A DNA stretch of 64,000 bases from Karstenula rhodostoma CBS 690.94. Its lineage: Eukaryota; Ascomycota; Dothideomycetes; Pleosporales; Didymosphaeriaceae. The stretch spans positions 882,051 to 946,050 of the forward strand of contig MU001508.1 in the NCBI GenBank assembly GCA_010093485.1. The letters are read 5' to 3'. The notes under the pieces were generated by a model. That model saw only the letters and a program-made list of their open reading frames with translations. It searched no databases and had not been told where the DNA came from. The position numbers and the translations under genes were made by a program. Positions 5,131 through 47,414 of this stretch are shown here, in pieces. The stretch's first letter is position 1, and every line of letters starts with the position of its first letter.

Positions 5131-6170
5131 GTAATACTATGCTATAGGCTATAAGTAATTTTACTTATACATACATATGCTGGCGAACCATGAGGCAGAA
5201 TGTAATAATAGAGGTTCAGCCATTGAGGACGCTACCCTGCGTTGCATGCTAATCCCCTCCCTGATTCGTGCACTGTGTTACCCCGCGGTCCCTTCTTGCT
5301 CAAAAGTATAGCTGATGTATTGCATTGCAAGTCGTTACGCCATACATCATAAATGTATGGTTTGGCTTTCATTACGATGCTTGGCTATTGTAGCTCACCT
5401 CGCGGAAGGACCTGGCAGGGCATATGATGGAGGGCCCCGGTCTAGCTAGGATCATCACTCATACAATACAATACTTTGCATACCTATTCTGTATGACGCC
5501 GGCTCACATACCACGTTGGCCTGTAAACACTTCTTACTGAGAGAGAATGCCACGATCCTAGATTGGCAGCCCTCAATCAATCAAGCGATTCGTTCCTACT
5601 GCCCAGTCCTCGGGTGTATGTGCCGGCGAGCTAGCGTGCACTAGCTACAGGCGGGAAGAATTCCTGTCATATCCAATCGCTGTTGAGCATCGTCTTCCCT
5701 TTCATGCATCGCGCATACTTTGAAGGGGCGTAGACTACTATGTTGCCCATACATCAAATATGGGCACTCACAAATAAATCCAGGCAGTCGCTTCAATCAG
5801 TTCCTAAGCATGTGAGCAGCTTCTAAACTGCTGTGGGTTCTTTATCATAGAACGTGTCAAATGCACACTTACGGGTATATCCCATCTGTTAAACGGTGAC
5901 AGAAAGCTACACCTACAACTGGCTTTGTAGACGGACAATTAGGATTGATATGTGAGTTAGCGTAACCGTGTTCCGTAGGAGGAGTAATGTTCCTGTGGTT
6001 GGCAGTCAGCCTGGTAGGAGCGATCTCTTAGTGCTGTCCTACTCTTTCGTGCCCCACTTTCGCTTCCGGTGCCCCGCTCTCTCGCCCAGCGAGAATTCGC
6101 ACGACTTTATTCGTACTCAATTATTAGGTATCTATATGTTTTATTTCGTATTAAAATCATCAAATCACAT
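5131..6170. other. Gene-free interval
   Basis: No coding pattern, repeat or RNA gene recognised. Composition is near balanced with short AT-rich patches. Confidence 0.45.
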
Positions 6171-6313
6171 GGTGAGATGGGTACGTTCAACATCTTCGTC
6201 ATAATCAAACATCAACTAAGTTATCTACAGCCGAGCGGTTAAGGCGCCAGCTTCAGGATTATCTAATTCTGCTGGTCAGTTTACTGGCGTGGGTTCGAGT
6301 CCCACTCTCATCA
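6171..6313 (+). tRNA. tRNA-Leu(CAG) with a 12-nt canonical intron and a 50-nt GT-AG insert
   Basis: With 6181-6230 removed the locus gives a complete cloverleaf. The acceptor GGTGAGA (6171-6177) pairs with TCTCATC (6306-6312), seven pairs including one G-T, and the discriminator is A at 6313. The D stem is G6180 plus CC with GGC; the anticodon stem is CCAGC (6247-6251) with GCTGG (6271-6275); the anticodon is CAG at 6254-6256. A canonical intron after position 37 spans 6258-6269. The variable arm is CAGT/ACTG, as expected for Leu, and the T arm is GTGGG/CCCAC with loop TTCGAGT. The B box lies at 6292-6302. The A box (TGG+CCGAGCGG) is split by the insert. Without removing the insert, the 5' acceptor strand would be TTATCTA, which does not pair. 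Whether the RNA is made and matured cannot be seen; it may be a disrupted copy. Confidence 0.75.
6181..6230 (+). other. 50-nt GT-AG intron-like insertion inside the tRNA gene
   Basis: The segment starts GTACGTTC and ends TTATCTACAG, with an AACTAAG branch-like string 11 nt before the 3' end. Its length, donor hexamer and acceptor match protein-gene introns in this window; an intron of the seven-TM gene also starts GTACGTTC and ends CTACAG. It sits between tRNA positions 10 and 11, far from the only site used for introns in most eukaryotic tRNAs (37/38). Confidence 0.7.
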
Positions 6314-6322
6314 ACATCATCG

Positions 6323-6354
6323 GTTGAGCTCTTCGGAGCTCAGCAATACTTTTT
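6323..6354 (+). terminator. cUUCGg hairpin followed by T5 (putative Pol III end)
   Basis: Ten bases after the tRNA end, GTTGAGCTC (6323-6331) pairs with GAGCTCAGC (6336-6344) around a TTCG loop, giving the very stable C(UUCG)G tetraloop. TTTTT follows at 6350-6354, a normal RNA polymerase III stop. The hairpin would form in the tRNA 3' trailer. Confidence 0.65.
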
Positions 6355-43225: not shown

Positions 43226-45463
43226 ATGGAAGCCCCTTTACTATCTTCGGCCGAGAGCCTTCTCCACGAAGAACACAAGCCTTCCAGAGATCTCTGGACA
43301 GCTCTTTACACCGGCGGCCTTTCATCGTCGTTGTATTTCTGGCAAAAATACGGACTTCATTCCTCGTCGGCACCACGCAAGGCGCCCACGACTGTGCCGC
43401 CCATCTCTGATGCCGAATTCCTAAATTCGCAAAACGTCCAACCTGGTGTACCATCATCATCCGACGTTGTGGTTGTAGGTGGCGGGATTCACTCGCTTAT
43501 ATACGCTATCCATCTTCGCCTCCGCTCCCAGTCTCTTTTTGCGAGCGACCCGACTCTCCATGTACCCTCCGTCACTGTGCTTGAACGGCTTCCCTCACCA
43601 GGCTACAAGATTGGAGAATCGACACTTACGACCTTTGGTGTCTGGTTGAAATCTGCTGGCATCAGTACTTCAGTCGTGTGGCGATTGTTCGGTGCAAAGG
43701 ATGGCCTCGCCTTTTACTACCTCCCTCAAGACGGCTCCTGGGACGGAGTCACGTCGTTTTGTGCCAATGGCCCGAGCGGTGATTTCGTAGCTACGTTGCA
43801 GATCGAGCGCAAGATCAGCGAGCTACTGTTGACGCTTTACGCACAGCGGCTGGGGGTGAAGGTCCTCCATGGTACGGGCGTCGACGTCCCTGGGACGCCG
43901 ATAAACAATGACCCGGTCAAGGCAACGAGCTCGTCTACGGTTCCAATCTCGAAGCCAGAATCCTCGGCTTTTCGTACTGAGCCTAAAGGTGGACAAGTGA
44001 AATTAACAAACGGTCTAGATATAAAGACGAAGCTTTTAGTCGATGCAACCGGTCGATTTCGTCGTTTTGCCTCGAAACAGAGTCACTCAAAGCGTTTCGA
44101 GGGGTTCAACACAGACTCTTTCTGGGCGTACTTTGAGATGACGGGCGATGAATCAGATTTGCCTTTCGAAAATTACGAGAGTTGCCATACGAACCATATC
44201 TGCCTCGCTGAAGGGTAAGTTTTGTTGTCTCATACTTCAGTAGTGAGCGTGAGTGACGGAGCTTGAGACATAAAGCTACCTTGTGCAGTAAGATTGAGCT
44301 AATGTGTGTATTACAGCTGGGCGTGGCTCATTCGGCTGCCCACATGGGAAGGTAGCTCAATCCCCAATCTTACGGCTATGATCAATCATTTGTTAGACCT
44401 CAACCAGGTCAACACCCCTTCGGACTCGTACCCATCAATGCAAGAGCTGGCTCAGAAGTTCAATTGCAAGGTCCGCTGGGTCACGAGCATCGGATACGCA
44501 CTTCGCAACGACGTCGTGTACCCCCCTCCGGGGGAACTGGAGATATACGGTGCTTGCGAAGCAGAACGAAAGTTCAACTGGATCACATCCAAGTACCCGC
44601 GTATGCAAGCATTCATGGATCGCCACCGACTCGTGAAGGACTTGTATGGGAAGAACTCGACATGGTTCATTCGCAAGCAACTTACTTACAGCACACCCAT
44701 CGTTTCCGGTATCGCGAAGAAGACTGAGGAAGATGAAGGCATGGTGTGGGCAGCTATCGGTGATGCGGCTGGGTTCACGAACCCGCTATACTCGCCAGGG
44801 ATTAATTGCAACATGGCAACCAGTGTTTTCCTGGCCGAAAAGACCCCTTTCCTCCTGTCGAGAGCCATGTTGGAAAAAGAAAAGATTCTGGATCAATACA
44901 ACAAGTTCTGTTCGGAAAGAGTGGTCAATCTACACCGCATGAACAAGTACAACTACGTACTCATGCAGTCGCCCCGAACCGGACCCCTGGGGCCACTGTG
45001 GCAATATCTTTCCGGAACAGGAAATGCCCTGTGGCGCAGATCTTCCGAATTCGTGTCCATCGACCGGGTCGCAGAATTCGTGACCACGTGGGATTGGGGC
45101 TCTCAGCACCCAGAGTACACCATGTTTGCAAAAGAGGCCATCCGACTTCTGGGGAACCGCTTGAGCGACGGACCGCCTGGGGAGGCGCGAGTGGAAGAAG
45201 TGTTGCGGCTCTCAGAGGAGATGCTGGCTCGGGCCAAGCAGAGCGGCAAGTATGTGAATCGCTGGGCAGGACTGTTCAGTTGGTATGATGATGAGTTGCG
45301 ATTCGATGCGAGCAAGAAAGGAAGAGATAAGCTCGCTGTGCGCTGTGAGGAATGTGGGAATTGGCGCATCTTGACAGGTGTCTCGACAAGGTGCTGCACT
45401 TGCGGAATAGTATGTAAGGAGGTGGACATTCTCAGGTACGACGATGCACGAGGTGGCAACTAG
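43226..45463 (+). CDS. Flavin-dependent halogenase-like oxidoreductase with C-terminal zinc-ribbon-like motif
   Basis: Exons 43226-44214 and 44317-45463, with a 102-bp intron, encode 711 aa. An FAD-binding Rossmann start sits at residues 81-90 (VVVVGGGIHS; the third Gly of GxGxxG is Ser). ERLPSPGYKIGEST at about 120-133 parallels the GES/GEA segment of Trp-halogenase-type enzymes. Downstream lie LVDATGRFRRF, WAWLIRLPTW at 331-340 (compare the halogenase WxWxIP motif) and VWAAIGDAAGFTNPLYSPGI, a late flavin-binding segment. The last ~45 residues carry CEEC and, 12 residues later, CCTC, a CxxC...CxxC pair like a zinc ribbon. The likely role is FAD-dependent halogenation or hydroxylation of a small molecule; which one is not decidable here. 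It converges with a DHA2 exporter gene 245 bp away. Confidence 0.8.
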
Positions 45464-45708: not shown

Positions 45709-47414
45709 TTAGACTTCCCCGCTCTTGCATTCGACAGCAGCGTCTTCCTCTACCTGGTTTTCCTTGTTCTGTTTGACGCTCTTCCATTCCACCAGGAGTG
45801 CAGGCACCAAGCTGAAGCACGCTAGCCCAAGTGCAACATAAATAGTGTTGCAAATCGCAGTCCTGTAGCCCTCGAGGAACACACTAATCAACTGTTGCGG
45901 CACCATGTTACGGATACTAGTCGCACCCATCTCGACGACCTGGCTCTTGGAAAGGTGCAACCCGGGTATCTTTGTCAACTGCCGGGCTAATTCACCCGTA
46001 AACACTGACTGCGCAACGCTCAGGAAGATGGCGCCGCCGAAGTTCTGCGCGAACATCATAAGCGACACGCCGGTCGTTTTGTCTTCTTTGGGTAAGACAA
46101 TTTGTGCATTCATGGAAGGCTGTTGCATGCCGATGCCGATACCGATACCGACTAGGAACTGATAGCCAATCCAGGCGCTGTGGTTGACATCGACTGGCCA
46201 TGTAGTGATCAGCCCAACGCCAATCGAGAGTATGACAGCGCTCAGAATCATGAAAGGAGCTGGGTATCCAATGCGCTGGACCAGACCACCTGCAAGGATC
46301 GTTCCAACGACCAGAGAAAGAATAAAAGGAATGGTCGCGACGCCAGATTTCATTGGTGAAAAATTCTTCAGGGCTTGAAAGAAGATCGGGATGTAGTAGG
46401 TGACAACAATCATTCCGGCTTGACTCGTGAATGCGAACAGAGCTGAAGCAGCCACTGTTCGTTGTTTGAGAATGCGCATCGGTAGTGTTGCTGTGTCTGG
46501 CCTCCAGATCTGGACCGCAAGGAATCCGATAAACAATAGGCCCGCGAGCACTAACAGGAGAACTATTCGCCAGCTTGACCACGCGTAAGTCGTACCGCCC
46601 CACTGAAGAGCCAGAAGAAGGCACACAATGGATGGTAGGAAGAGAATTGTGCCGATGGGGTCCATTCTCTTGAATCGTTCCAACAGAGTCAATTGCTCGC
46701 GTATCTTTGATGGTAGGTGCAGCACCAAGATAAGGACACCAATGGCTAGGCCACCCAGAGGCAGGTTGATGTAAAAACACCACCTCCAGCTCACATGCTC
46801 GGTAAACGCGCCACCAAGCAATGGCCCGACTACACCAGCAATGCCGAATACCGCACCGATCAACCCGGTGAACATGGGCCTCTTTTCCAGTGGCGTGATT
46901 TGTATGACCACTACGATGGCTCCGTTCGAGATACCAGCACTTCCAGCTCCGGCGATTGCGCGTCCTACAATCAAGACCGGAGAGGATGGCGCAGCTCCGC
47001 AGAGAGCACTGCCAATCTCGAAGACGACGACTGCAGCGATGAAGGTGACCTTGACAGGGTAGAACGTGTATATTCGCCCCCAAAACATCTGGAAAGCACA
47101 GAGCGTGAGCATGTAAGACGATCCGTACCAGCCAATGTCGGATAAAGAGTTGAAGTCGTTAGTTATTCGGGGCACGGCAGTTGCGAGGATGGTTTTGTCC
47201 TGTGTTCGAGTCAGATTGGCCACGCTACACGGGGAGTGCAAAGACTTACCAGTGCGACAAGGAACATTGTGAGATAAAGACAGCCCATAATGATCCATGT
47301 GCGGCCTGGGGTGGGGTACTGGGGATCGTCCCTGTCTTGTGGCGTCTTCTCATGGCTCAATGTGCGGTTTTCCAAGGCTCTACCAACATCCTTTGAGTTT
47401 GAAGTAGTCTCCAT
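45709..47414 (-). CDS. MFS drug:H+ antiporter, DHA2 family (14 TM)
   Basis: Exons 47414-47250 and 47199-45709 on the minus strand, with a 50-bp intron, encode 551 aa. The intron splits the classic TM1 motif, which becomes FLVALDKTILATAVPRI after joining. Other DHA2 marks are WYGSSYMLTLCAFQMFWGRI, the TM4 segment VGRAIAGAGSAGISNGAIVV, motif C in TM5 (GLIGAVFGIAGVVGPLLGGA) and SWRWCFYINLPLGGLA. About fourteen hydrophobic helices are visible. Such proteins export toxic small molecules or secondary metabolites across the plasma membrane. The gene is convergent with the halogenase-like gene and divergent from another MFS gene. Confidence 0.94.

Follow-up and report, generated by a model that had tools for sequence, protein, structure and literature searches.

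Introns with spliceosomal signals interrupt tRNA genes in the fungus Karstenula rhodostoma

A tRNA-Leu(CAG) gene of Karstenula rhodostoma CBS 690.94 is interrupted in its D arm by an insert with the boundaries and splice signals of an mRNA intron, the same anatomy is found in 16 other tRNA genes of this genome, and in each case joining of the exons restores the correct tRNA. The best explanation, and on the sequence evidence a very probable one, is that the gene is transcribed by RNA polymerase III into a precursor from which the spliceosome would take out a 50-nt GT-AG intron and the tRNA-splicing endonuclease a second, 12-nt intron at position 37/38. While the insert, its boundaries and its signals are observed directly, it is splicing, the spliceosome as its agent and transcription by polymerase III that we infer, from sequence evidence of several independent kinds.

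The interrupted tRNA-Leu(CAG) gene

The window, i.e., the whole stretch of 64,000 nt that was analyzed, corresponds to C17:882051-946050 in a genome of 44.3 Mb on 29 contigs. The gene and its surroundings comprise the following features, given in window positions:

6129-6136, plus strand: TATA-like box TATCTATA, found by pattern match, 42 nt upstream of the tRNA 5′ end
6158-6163, plus strand: CATCAA leader motif, noticed by eye ahead of many of the genome's tRNA genes
6171-6180, plus strand: exon 1, GGTGAGATGG, comprising the acceptor 5′ strand, T8, G9 and G10; abuts the exon 2 sequence in L002-L006
6181-6230, plus strand: spliceosomal-type GT-AG intron of 50 nt that separates positions 10 and 11, assigned from splice signals and boundary comparison
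6216-6220, plus strand: branch-point-like CTAAG with the branch A at 6219, 11 nt before the intron end
6231-6257, plus strand: exon 2, comprising the remaining D arm and the 5′ half of the anticodon arm, with the anticodon CAG at 6254-6256 (ARAGORN)
6258-6269, plus strand: second intron, 12 nt long and without GT-AG ends, at 37/38, the canonical site for the tRNA endonuclease (ARAGORN)
6270-6313, plus strand: exon 3, comprising the 3′ half of the anticodon arm, a long variable arm, the T arm with intact B box, the acceptor 3′ strand and the discriminator A
6323-6354, plus strand: polymerase III-terminator-like element, a hairpin at 6323-6344 and a T5 run at 6350-6354, from a scan for bacterial-type terminators

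The CATCAA motif has a putative role in initiation. Nucleotides 6171-6177 pair with 6306-6312 (seven pairs, including one G.U), which bears out the claim of a preliminary description of this DNA that the tRNA starts at 6171-6180. Its account of a 50-nt GT-AG insert with a branch-like string, sitting in the D arm and splitting the A box, was likewise exact; the insert starts with GTACGT and ends with CTACAG. For the raw window DNA, cmscan reported a match at 6229-6305 only, which lacked the acceptor stem and, at 27.4 bits, fell below the gathering score of the Rfam tRNA model (29 bits), and ARAGORN found no tRNA. After removal of 6181-6230, and with 37/38 introns allowed, ARAGORN returned a tRNA-Leu(CAG) with a 12-nt intron, in agreement with the additional intron described before. 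This comparison with and without the insert, which the preliminary description had proposed as a check, rests on ARAGORN and not on the Rfam model score.

Five further Leu genes (L002-L006) read GGTGAGATGGCCGAG unbroken across the insertion site of the window gene. Because these five are uninterrupted at this site and carry similar GT-AG inserts of their own, the insert in the window gene is not a product of chance. Folding of the unspliced 6171-6313 was not informative (z -1.86, with 9 of 200 shuffles folding equally well).

Leu(AAG) and Leu(CAG) genes

Searching the DNA of the whole genome with 6150-6330 yielded six places at E values up to 0.001, all of them tRNA-Leu genes. Read base by base, all six Leu(AAG) and Leu(CAG) genes have their D arm broken by a GT-AG insert, with three insertion sites among them:

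Insert between positions 10 and 11: window gene, Leu(CAG)
Insert between positions 18 and 19: L002, L003 and L005, Leu(AAG), and L004, Leu(CAG)
Insert between positions 24 and 25: L006, Leu(AAG)

As each site is unbroken in those members that do not have the respective insert, the family supplies its own empty sites. The genome searches run here found no intron-free gene for Leu(AAG) (0 of 4) or Leu(CAG) (0 of 2). A count of other Leu(CAG) genes, suggested earlier as a way to judge the window copy, thus gave one more gene (L004), interrupted too, and no intact one. Since all six genes are interrupted, these isoacceptors would as a rule be made by splicing. In six ORFs, CTC (96 of 301 Leu codons) and CTG (80 of 301) are the two commonest Leu codons. 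The genes for Leu(TAG) (L054) and Leu(CAA) (L057) are free of GT-AG introns. Intact L054 might read some CUN codons, namely CUA and CUG, and the need for the interrupted genes is therefore firmest for CUC and CUU.

One of the Leu(AAG) genes, L005, stands in tandem with the Gly(GCC) gene L096 on the minus strand (C10:1111926-1112500), with a T4 run alone between them. Each of the two has its own GT-AG intron, in the D loop and the T loop, respectively.

Interrupted tRNA genes across the genome

Altogether, GT-AG introns were found in at least 17 of the about 110 tRNA genes seen, i.e., in the six Leu genes and in 11 more for initiator Met (iMet), Pro, Thr, Gly, Ala, Glu and Val. They occupy 11 positions from the acceptor stem to the T loop, with position numbers assigned by hand. 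The total of about 110 is the sum of 54, 27, 6, 18 and 5 genes; it includes L098 and L103, whose isotype is doubtful, and excludes the tRNA-like L094, L095 and L126. Both 17 and 110 are rough lower bounds, because the patterns used miss genes that lack a T-run or have the T arm split and because the searches score part of the candidates.

The Rfam tRNA search, with 62 of 1177 candidates scored, gave at least 54 genes, all 54 of which were read. A pattern combining T arm and T-run matched 100 places vs 26 in a reversed control, and the places outside the 54 were inspected with the exception of four. Three variant patterns matched 71, 74 and 66 places vs 54, 40 and 75 in the controls; as these control counts are comparable, the matches are mostly due to chance, and 20 regions were picked by eye and read, 18 of them with a counted tRNA gene. 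The interrupted genes beyond the Leu family, with the search that led to them, are:

L059, initiator Met: intron between 38 and 39 (Rfam search)
L060, Ala(CGC): intron between 25 and 26 (Rfam search)
L086, Glu(TTC): intron between 13 and 14 (T-arm-plus-T-run pattern)
L093, Ala(CGC): intron between 25 and 26 (T-arm-plus-T-run pattern)
L107, Val(TAC): intron between 15 and 16 (T-arm-plus-T-run pattern)
L096, Gly(GCC): intron between 60 and 61, in the T loop (T-arm-plus-T-run pattern)
L121 and L123, Pro(AGG), and L125, Pro(TGG): intron between 20 and 21 (variant patterns)
L135, Thr(CGT): intron between 5 and 6, in the acceptor stem (variant patterns)
L140, initiator Met: intron between 46 and 47 (variant patterns)

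Two DNA searches with 43 tRNA sequences, each with 40 candidates scored, revealed no new interrupted gene. They added five tRNA places, counted by match and not by base-by-base reading, one of them matched over 70 of 87 nt only. Genes for tRNA-Phe, tRNA-His and Leu(TAA) were not recognized in the gene lists read, and a pattern for a tRNA-Phe unbroken from anticodon to T arm matched 19 places (14 in the control), none of which looked Phe-like by eye; the genes for these tRNAs may be interrupted, or may have been missed through the limited number of candidates scored. A lone broken copy in the window had been considered as a candidate explanation and is ruled out by the 16 further interrupted genes.

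Two further observations concern tRNA-like sequences. The excluded elements L094, L095 and L126, located on C9, consist of an A box, a Trp-like anticodon loop, more than 100 nt and then a T arm, and may be either repeats derived from tRNA or Trp-like genes containing long inserts. Behind the tRNA-Tyr genes L128 and L130 stand one or two additional 3′ ends made up of T arm plus acceptor strand, arranged in tandem and each with its own T-run.

Intron signals and boundaries

All 17 introns are between 48 and 61 nt long, 16 of them within 48-53 nt. Their 5′ end reads GTnnG without exception, with T at position 6 in 14 introns, and their 3′ end is always YAG (CAG in 10, TAG in seven). CTAA followed by C, T or G is likewise present in all 17 and places the branch A 9-11 nt from the intron end; CTAA starting at one of three given places is expected by chance in about 1% of inserts. 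For 13 genes, comparison with an intron-free sister or with family members having the empty site served to set the boundary without assuming GT-AG. The GT-AG placement is allowed in all 13 and is the only possible one in five.

A scan of the window for introns of protein genes gave 62 groups, mostly noise, with plausible introns at 47200-47249 (50 nt) and 44215-44316 (102 nt). Protein families recognized in the window with Pfam are MFS with a TRI12 match, GH47, PAP2 and aldo/keto reductase, a set in keeping with a filamentous fungus; the GH47 ORF has its best match in PDB 29te.

Polymerase III features and the U6 gene

A run of at least four T was found 3′ of all 17 interrupted genes. This count is biased for the pattern-found genes, since those patterns require a nearby T-run; it is free of that bias for the Leu genes, which DNA similarity revealed, and for L059 and L060, which came from the Rfam model. 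Upstream, a TATA-like match is present in 11 of the 17 within the 60 nt scanned (25 nt for L140), the other six having no match to the patterns used. The A box is split by the intron in some genes, the window gene included. In Gly(GCC) L096 it is the B box that is split, and another B box, GTTCGATTC, lies 85 nt downstream. No downstream B box was found within 200 nt of the intact Gly(GCC) gene L051, nor within 200 nt of five Leu genes checked, whose internal B box is intact. Downstream B boxes are also present at all three iMet genes, the intron-free L016 included, and at the U6 gene; in this check, Pro L121 was covered with 14 nt of flank only, and the Ala, Glu, Val(TAC) and Thr genes lay outside it. 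Taken together, this reads as if polymerase III promoters had been kept or rebuilt around the introns. B-box-like GTTCRANNC motifs were seen 28-50 nt downstream of iMet and Val(AAC) genes (L016, L059, L140, L137 and L138).

In other species, U6 is an RNA made by polymerase III. The U6 gene of the present genome (L141:1501-1659) carries a 54-nt GT-AG intron that contains a B box; the branch A lies 12 nt before the intron end, and a 14-nt stretch of the intron is identical to the T arm found in the Leu tRNAs (blastn-short, E 0.04). The U6 intron of Schizosaccharomyces pombe is spliced and thought to be derived from reverse splicing (PMC10484740). A second U6 copy of the present genome, inverted and partial, lies about 0.3 kb downstream (C3:1528364-1528462, minus strand) and is 5′-truncated and intron-free. 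Its interpretation as a processed copy was dropped, since it shares the 3′ flank beyond the T-run; for the same reason, it may predate the intron.

Spliceosomes usually act on polymerase II transcripts. This habit, together with the split A box of genes such as the one in the window, could suggest that the introns are removed by the spliceosome from polymerase II transcripts, a route that the preliminary description had also raised. Such a route is not needed, however, with the polymerase III features kept: the T-runs, the TATA-like boxes, the additional B box downstream of the gene with a split internal one and the precedent of U6 all argue against it, and we consider it unlikely.

Origin of the introns

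The introns probably arose by insertion into tRNA genes that were already working, perhaps through reverse splicing of excised introns. Support for the latter comes, for one case, from the window intron, which is 77% alike to the intron of Pro(AGG) L121 at a different site. From the 5′ splice site to the branch, none of 20,000 dinucleotide shuffles reached the score of this pair (z 6.6), which ranks first among 136 pairs; the likeness concerns a single pair, with A/C-rich stretches about 30 nt long, and a local blastn-short search against the loci studied (E up to 0.05) did not report it. Because the two introns differ both in their host tRNA and in their position within it, the likeness is not explained by conversion of the gene, whereas movement of the intron alone, such as by reverse splicing, would account for it.

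Introners, or introner-like elements, are spliceosomal introns gained at many sites, which form multicopy families in protein genes. The likeness between the window and L121 introns could also be expected if the inserts were such a multicopy family bursting through the genome. Yet 16 of the intron sequences, searched against the whole genome, match only themselves and the sister Pro intron L123. At the sensitivity of this search, which is limited in that blastn-short misses the window/L121 pair, there is thus no introner family, and this explanation appears very unlikely. Of the earlier suggestion of an introner-like or reverse-spliced origin, reverse splicing stays alive through the resemblance to the Pro(AGG) intron, and the introner part found no support in the genome check that had been proposed for it.

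Two kinds of introns within one gene

Besides their GT-AG intron, 15 of the 17 interrupted genes contain an ordinary intron at 37/38, and GT..AG ends are found in none of these 15. Conversely, position 37/38 is not used by any GT-AG intron, the nearest of their sites being 38/39 in iMet L059. Bulge-helix-bulge pairing averages 1.2 of four pairs for the GT-AG introns vs 2.0 for the 37/38 introns, and is a poor discriminator. It could be argued that the inserts are themselves introns of the tRNA-splicing endonuclease (TSEN) at unusual sites, as in archaea, nucleomorphs and Cyanidioschyzon, and that their GT-AG look is incidental: non-canonical tRNA introns outside the anticodon loop do exist in eukaryotes (PMC4090602), and nearly all of the genes here also have the ordinary intron. 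With GT, YAG and a placed CTAA in every one of the 17 inserts against no GT..AG among the 37/38 introns, however, this reading is highly improbable, and removal by the spliceosome remains the preferred one.

Capacity of the genes to encode tRNAs

When the exons were joined and 37/38 introns allowed, ARAGORN assigned the expected isotype and anticodon to all 17 genes, 15 of them with a 37/38 intron, whereas from the raw sequences it called one gene correctly, four wrongly and 12 not at all. Without the 37/38 option, two joined genes were called correctly (both iMet) and L060 and L093 were mislabelled, so that 15 genes require this option. The exons of iMet L059 and L140 are identical to each other and equal to the intron-free L016.

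Compared with the exons, which are 0.89-0.96 alike among the Leu and Ala paralogues, the introns have drifted. For same-site Leu introns, core identity is 0.48-0.50 vs 0.49-0.51 after shuffling in four of six pairs, and 0.62 vs 0.53 and 0.68 vs 0.49 in the remaining two; for the Ala pair it is 0.36 vs 0.39. A clear relationship exists between the two Pro(AGG) introns (core 0.79 vs 0.54; exons 0.96), and the Pro(TGG) intron is hardly related to them (0.51 vs 0.46-0.47; exons 0.79-0.80). Introns that drift while their splice signals persist form a pattern as selection for splicing would leave it.

That the interrupted genes are pseudogenes killed by the insertions, as had been considered for the window copy, could be supposed from the intron-free sisters that exist for iMet, Pro(AGG), Pro(TGG), Thr(CGT), Gly(GCC) and Val(TAC), but is extremely improbable given the interruption of every Leu(AAG) and Leu(CAG) gene found and of 17 tRNA genes in all, the right tRNA obtained from the exons of each, the identical iMet exons and the splice signals kept in drifting introns.

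Implications and comparison with known systems

The introns of tRNAs and of mRNAs are taught as separate worlds with separate enzymes. Those described here are likely ordinary introns in an extraordinary place, which would amount to a new way of making tRNA if the spliceosome removes them. We see about an even chance that they represent a third kind of tRNA intron, one that is spliceosomal, hops between tRNA genes by reverse splicing, makes an essential tRNA supply (every detected Leu(AAG) and Leu(CAG) gene) dependent on the spliceosome and leads to processing of one precursor by both spliceosome and tRNA endonuclease. If true, the need of every detected gene of an essential tRNA for the spliceosome would couple translation to mRNA splicing, and polymerase III transcripts could be routine substrates of the spliceosome. 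The genome would then also provide a natural test of intron gain, as the iMet, Pro, Thr and Gly genes include sisters that have identical exon content, one with and one without an intron. For annotation, it is relevant that genes of this kind are overlooked or wrongly labelled by tRNA gene finders, as happened with ARAGORN for 16 of the 17 here.

A literature search, with preprints and most subscription papers outside its scope, found no title on spliceosomal introns in tRNA genes among those listed. According to a 2014 review, most eukaryotic tRNA genes with insertions in the D or T arm are supposed to represent pseudogenes, with nucleomorphs and Cyanidioschyzon merolae as exceptions, and its main text contains no word beginning with "spliceosom" (PMC4090602). 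The tRNA introns of these exceptions resemble the present ones in lying outside the canonical place, D and T arms included (PMC4090602). However, those of the Guillardia theta nucleomorph measure 3-24 nt and in C. merolae bulge-helix-bulge motifs seem decisive (PMC4090602), whereas the introns described here are about 50 nt long and have GT-AG ends and a branch motif. Canonical 37/38 introns, removed by TSEN plus ligase, interrupt tRNA genes as well and accompany most of the GT-AG introns; the latter differ from them in their positions, their mRNA-intron signals and their length of 48-61 nt. With introners, the introns share the spliceosomal type and the gain at many sites, but nearly all of their sequences are unique and their hosts are tRNA genes. 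A further parallel is the U6 gene of S. pombe, whose introns reportedly hold a B box, as does the GT-AG intron of the U6 gene in the present genome. The S. pombe case also resembles the present one in being an mRNA-type intron in a polymerase III transcript with a supposed origin by reverse splicing (PMC10484740). There, a single RNA of the spliceosome itself is concerned, whereas in K. rhodostoma such introns are found in 17 tRNA genes, at 11 positions, in seven amino-acid families plus initiator Met.
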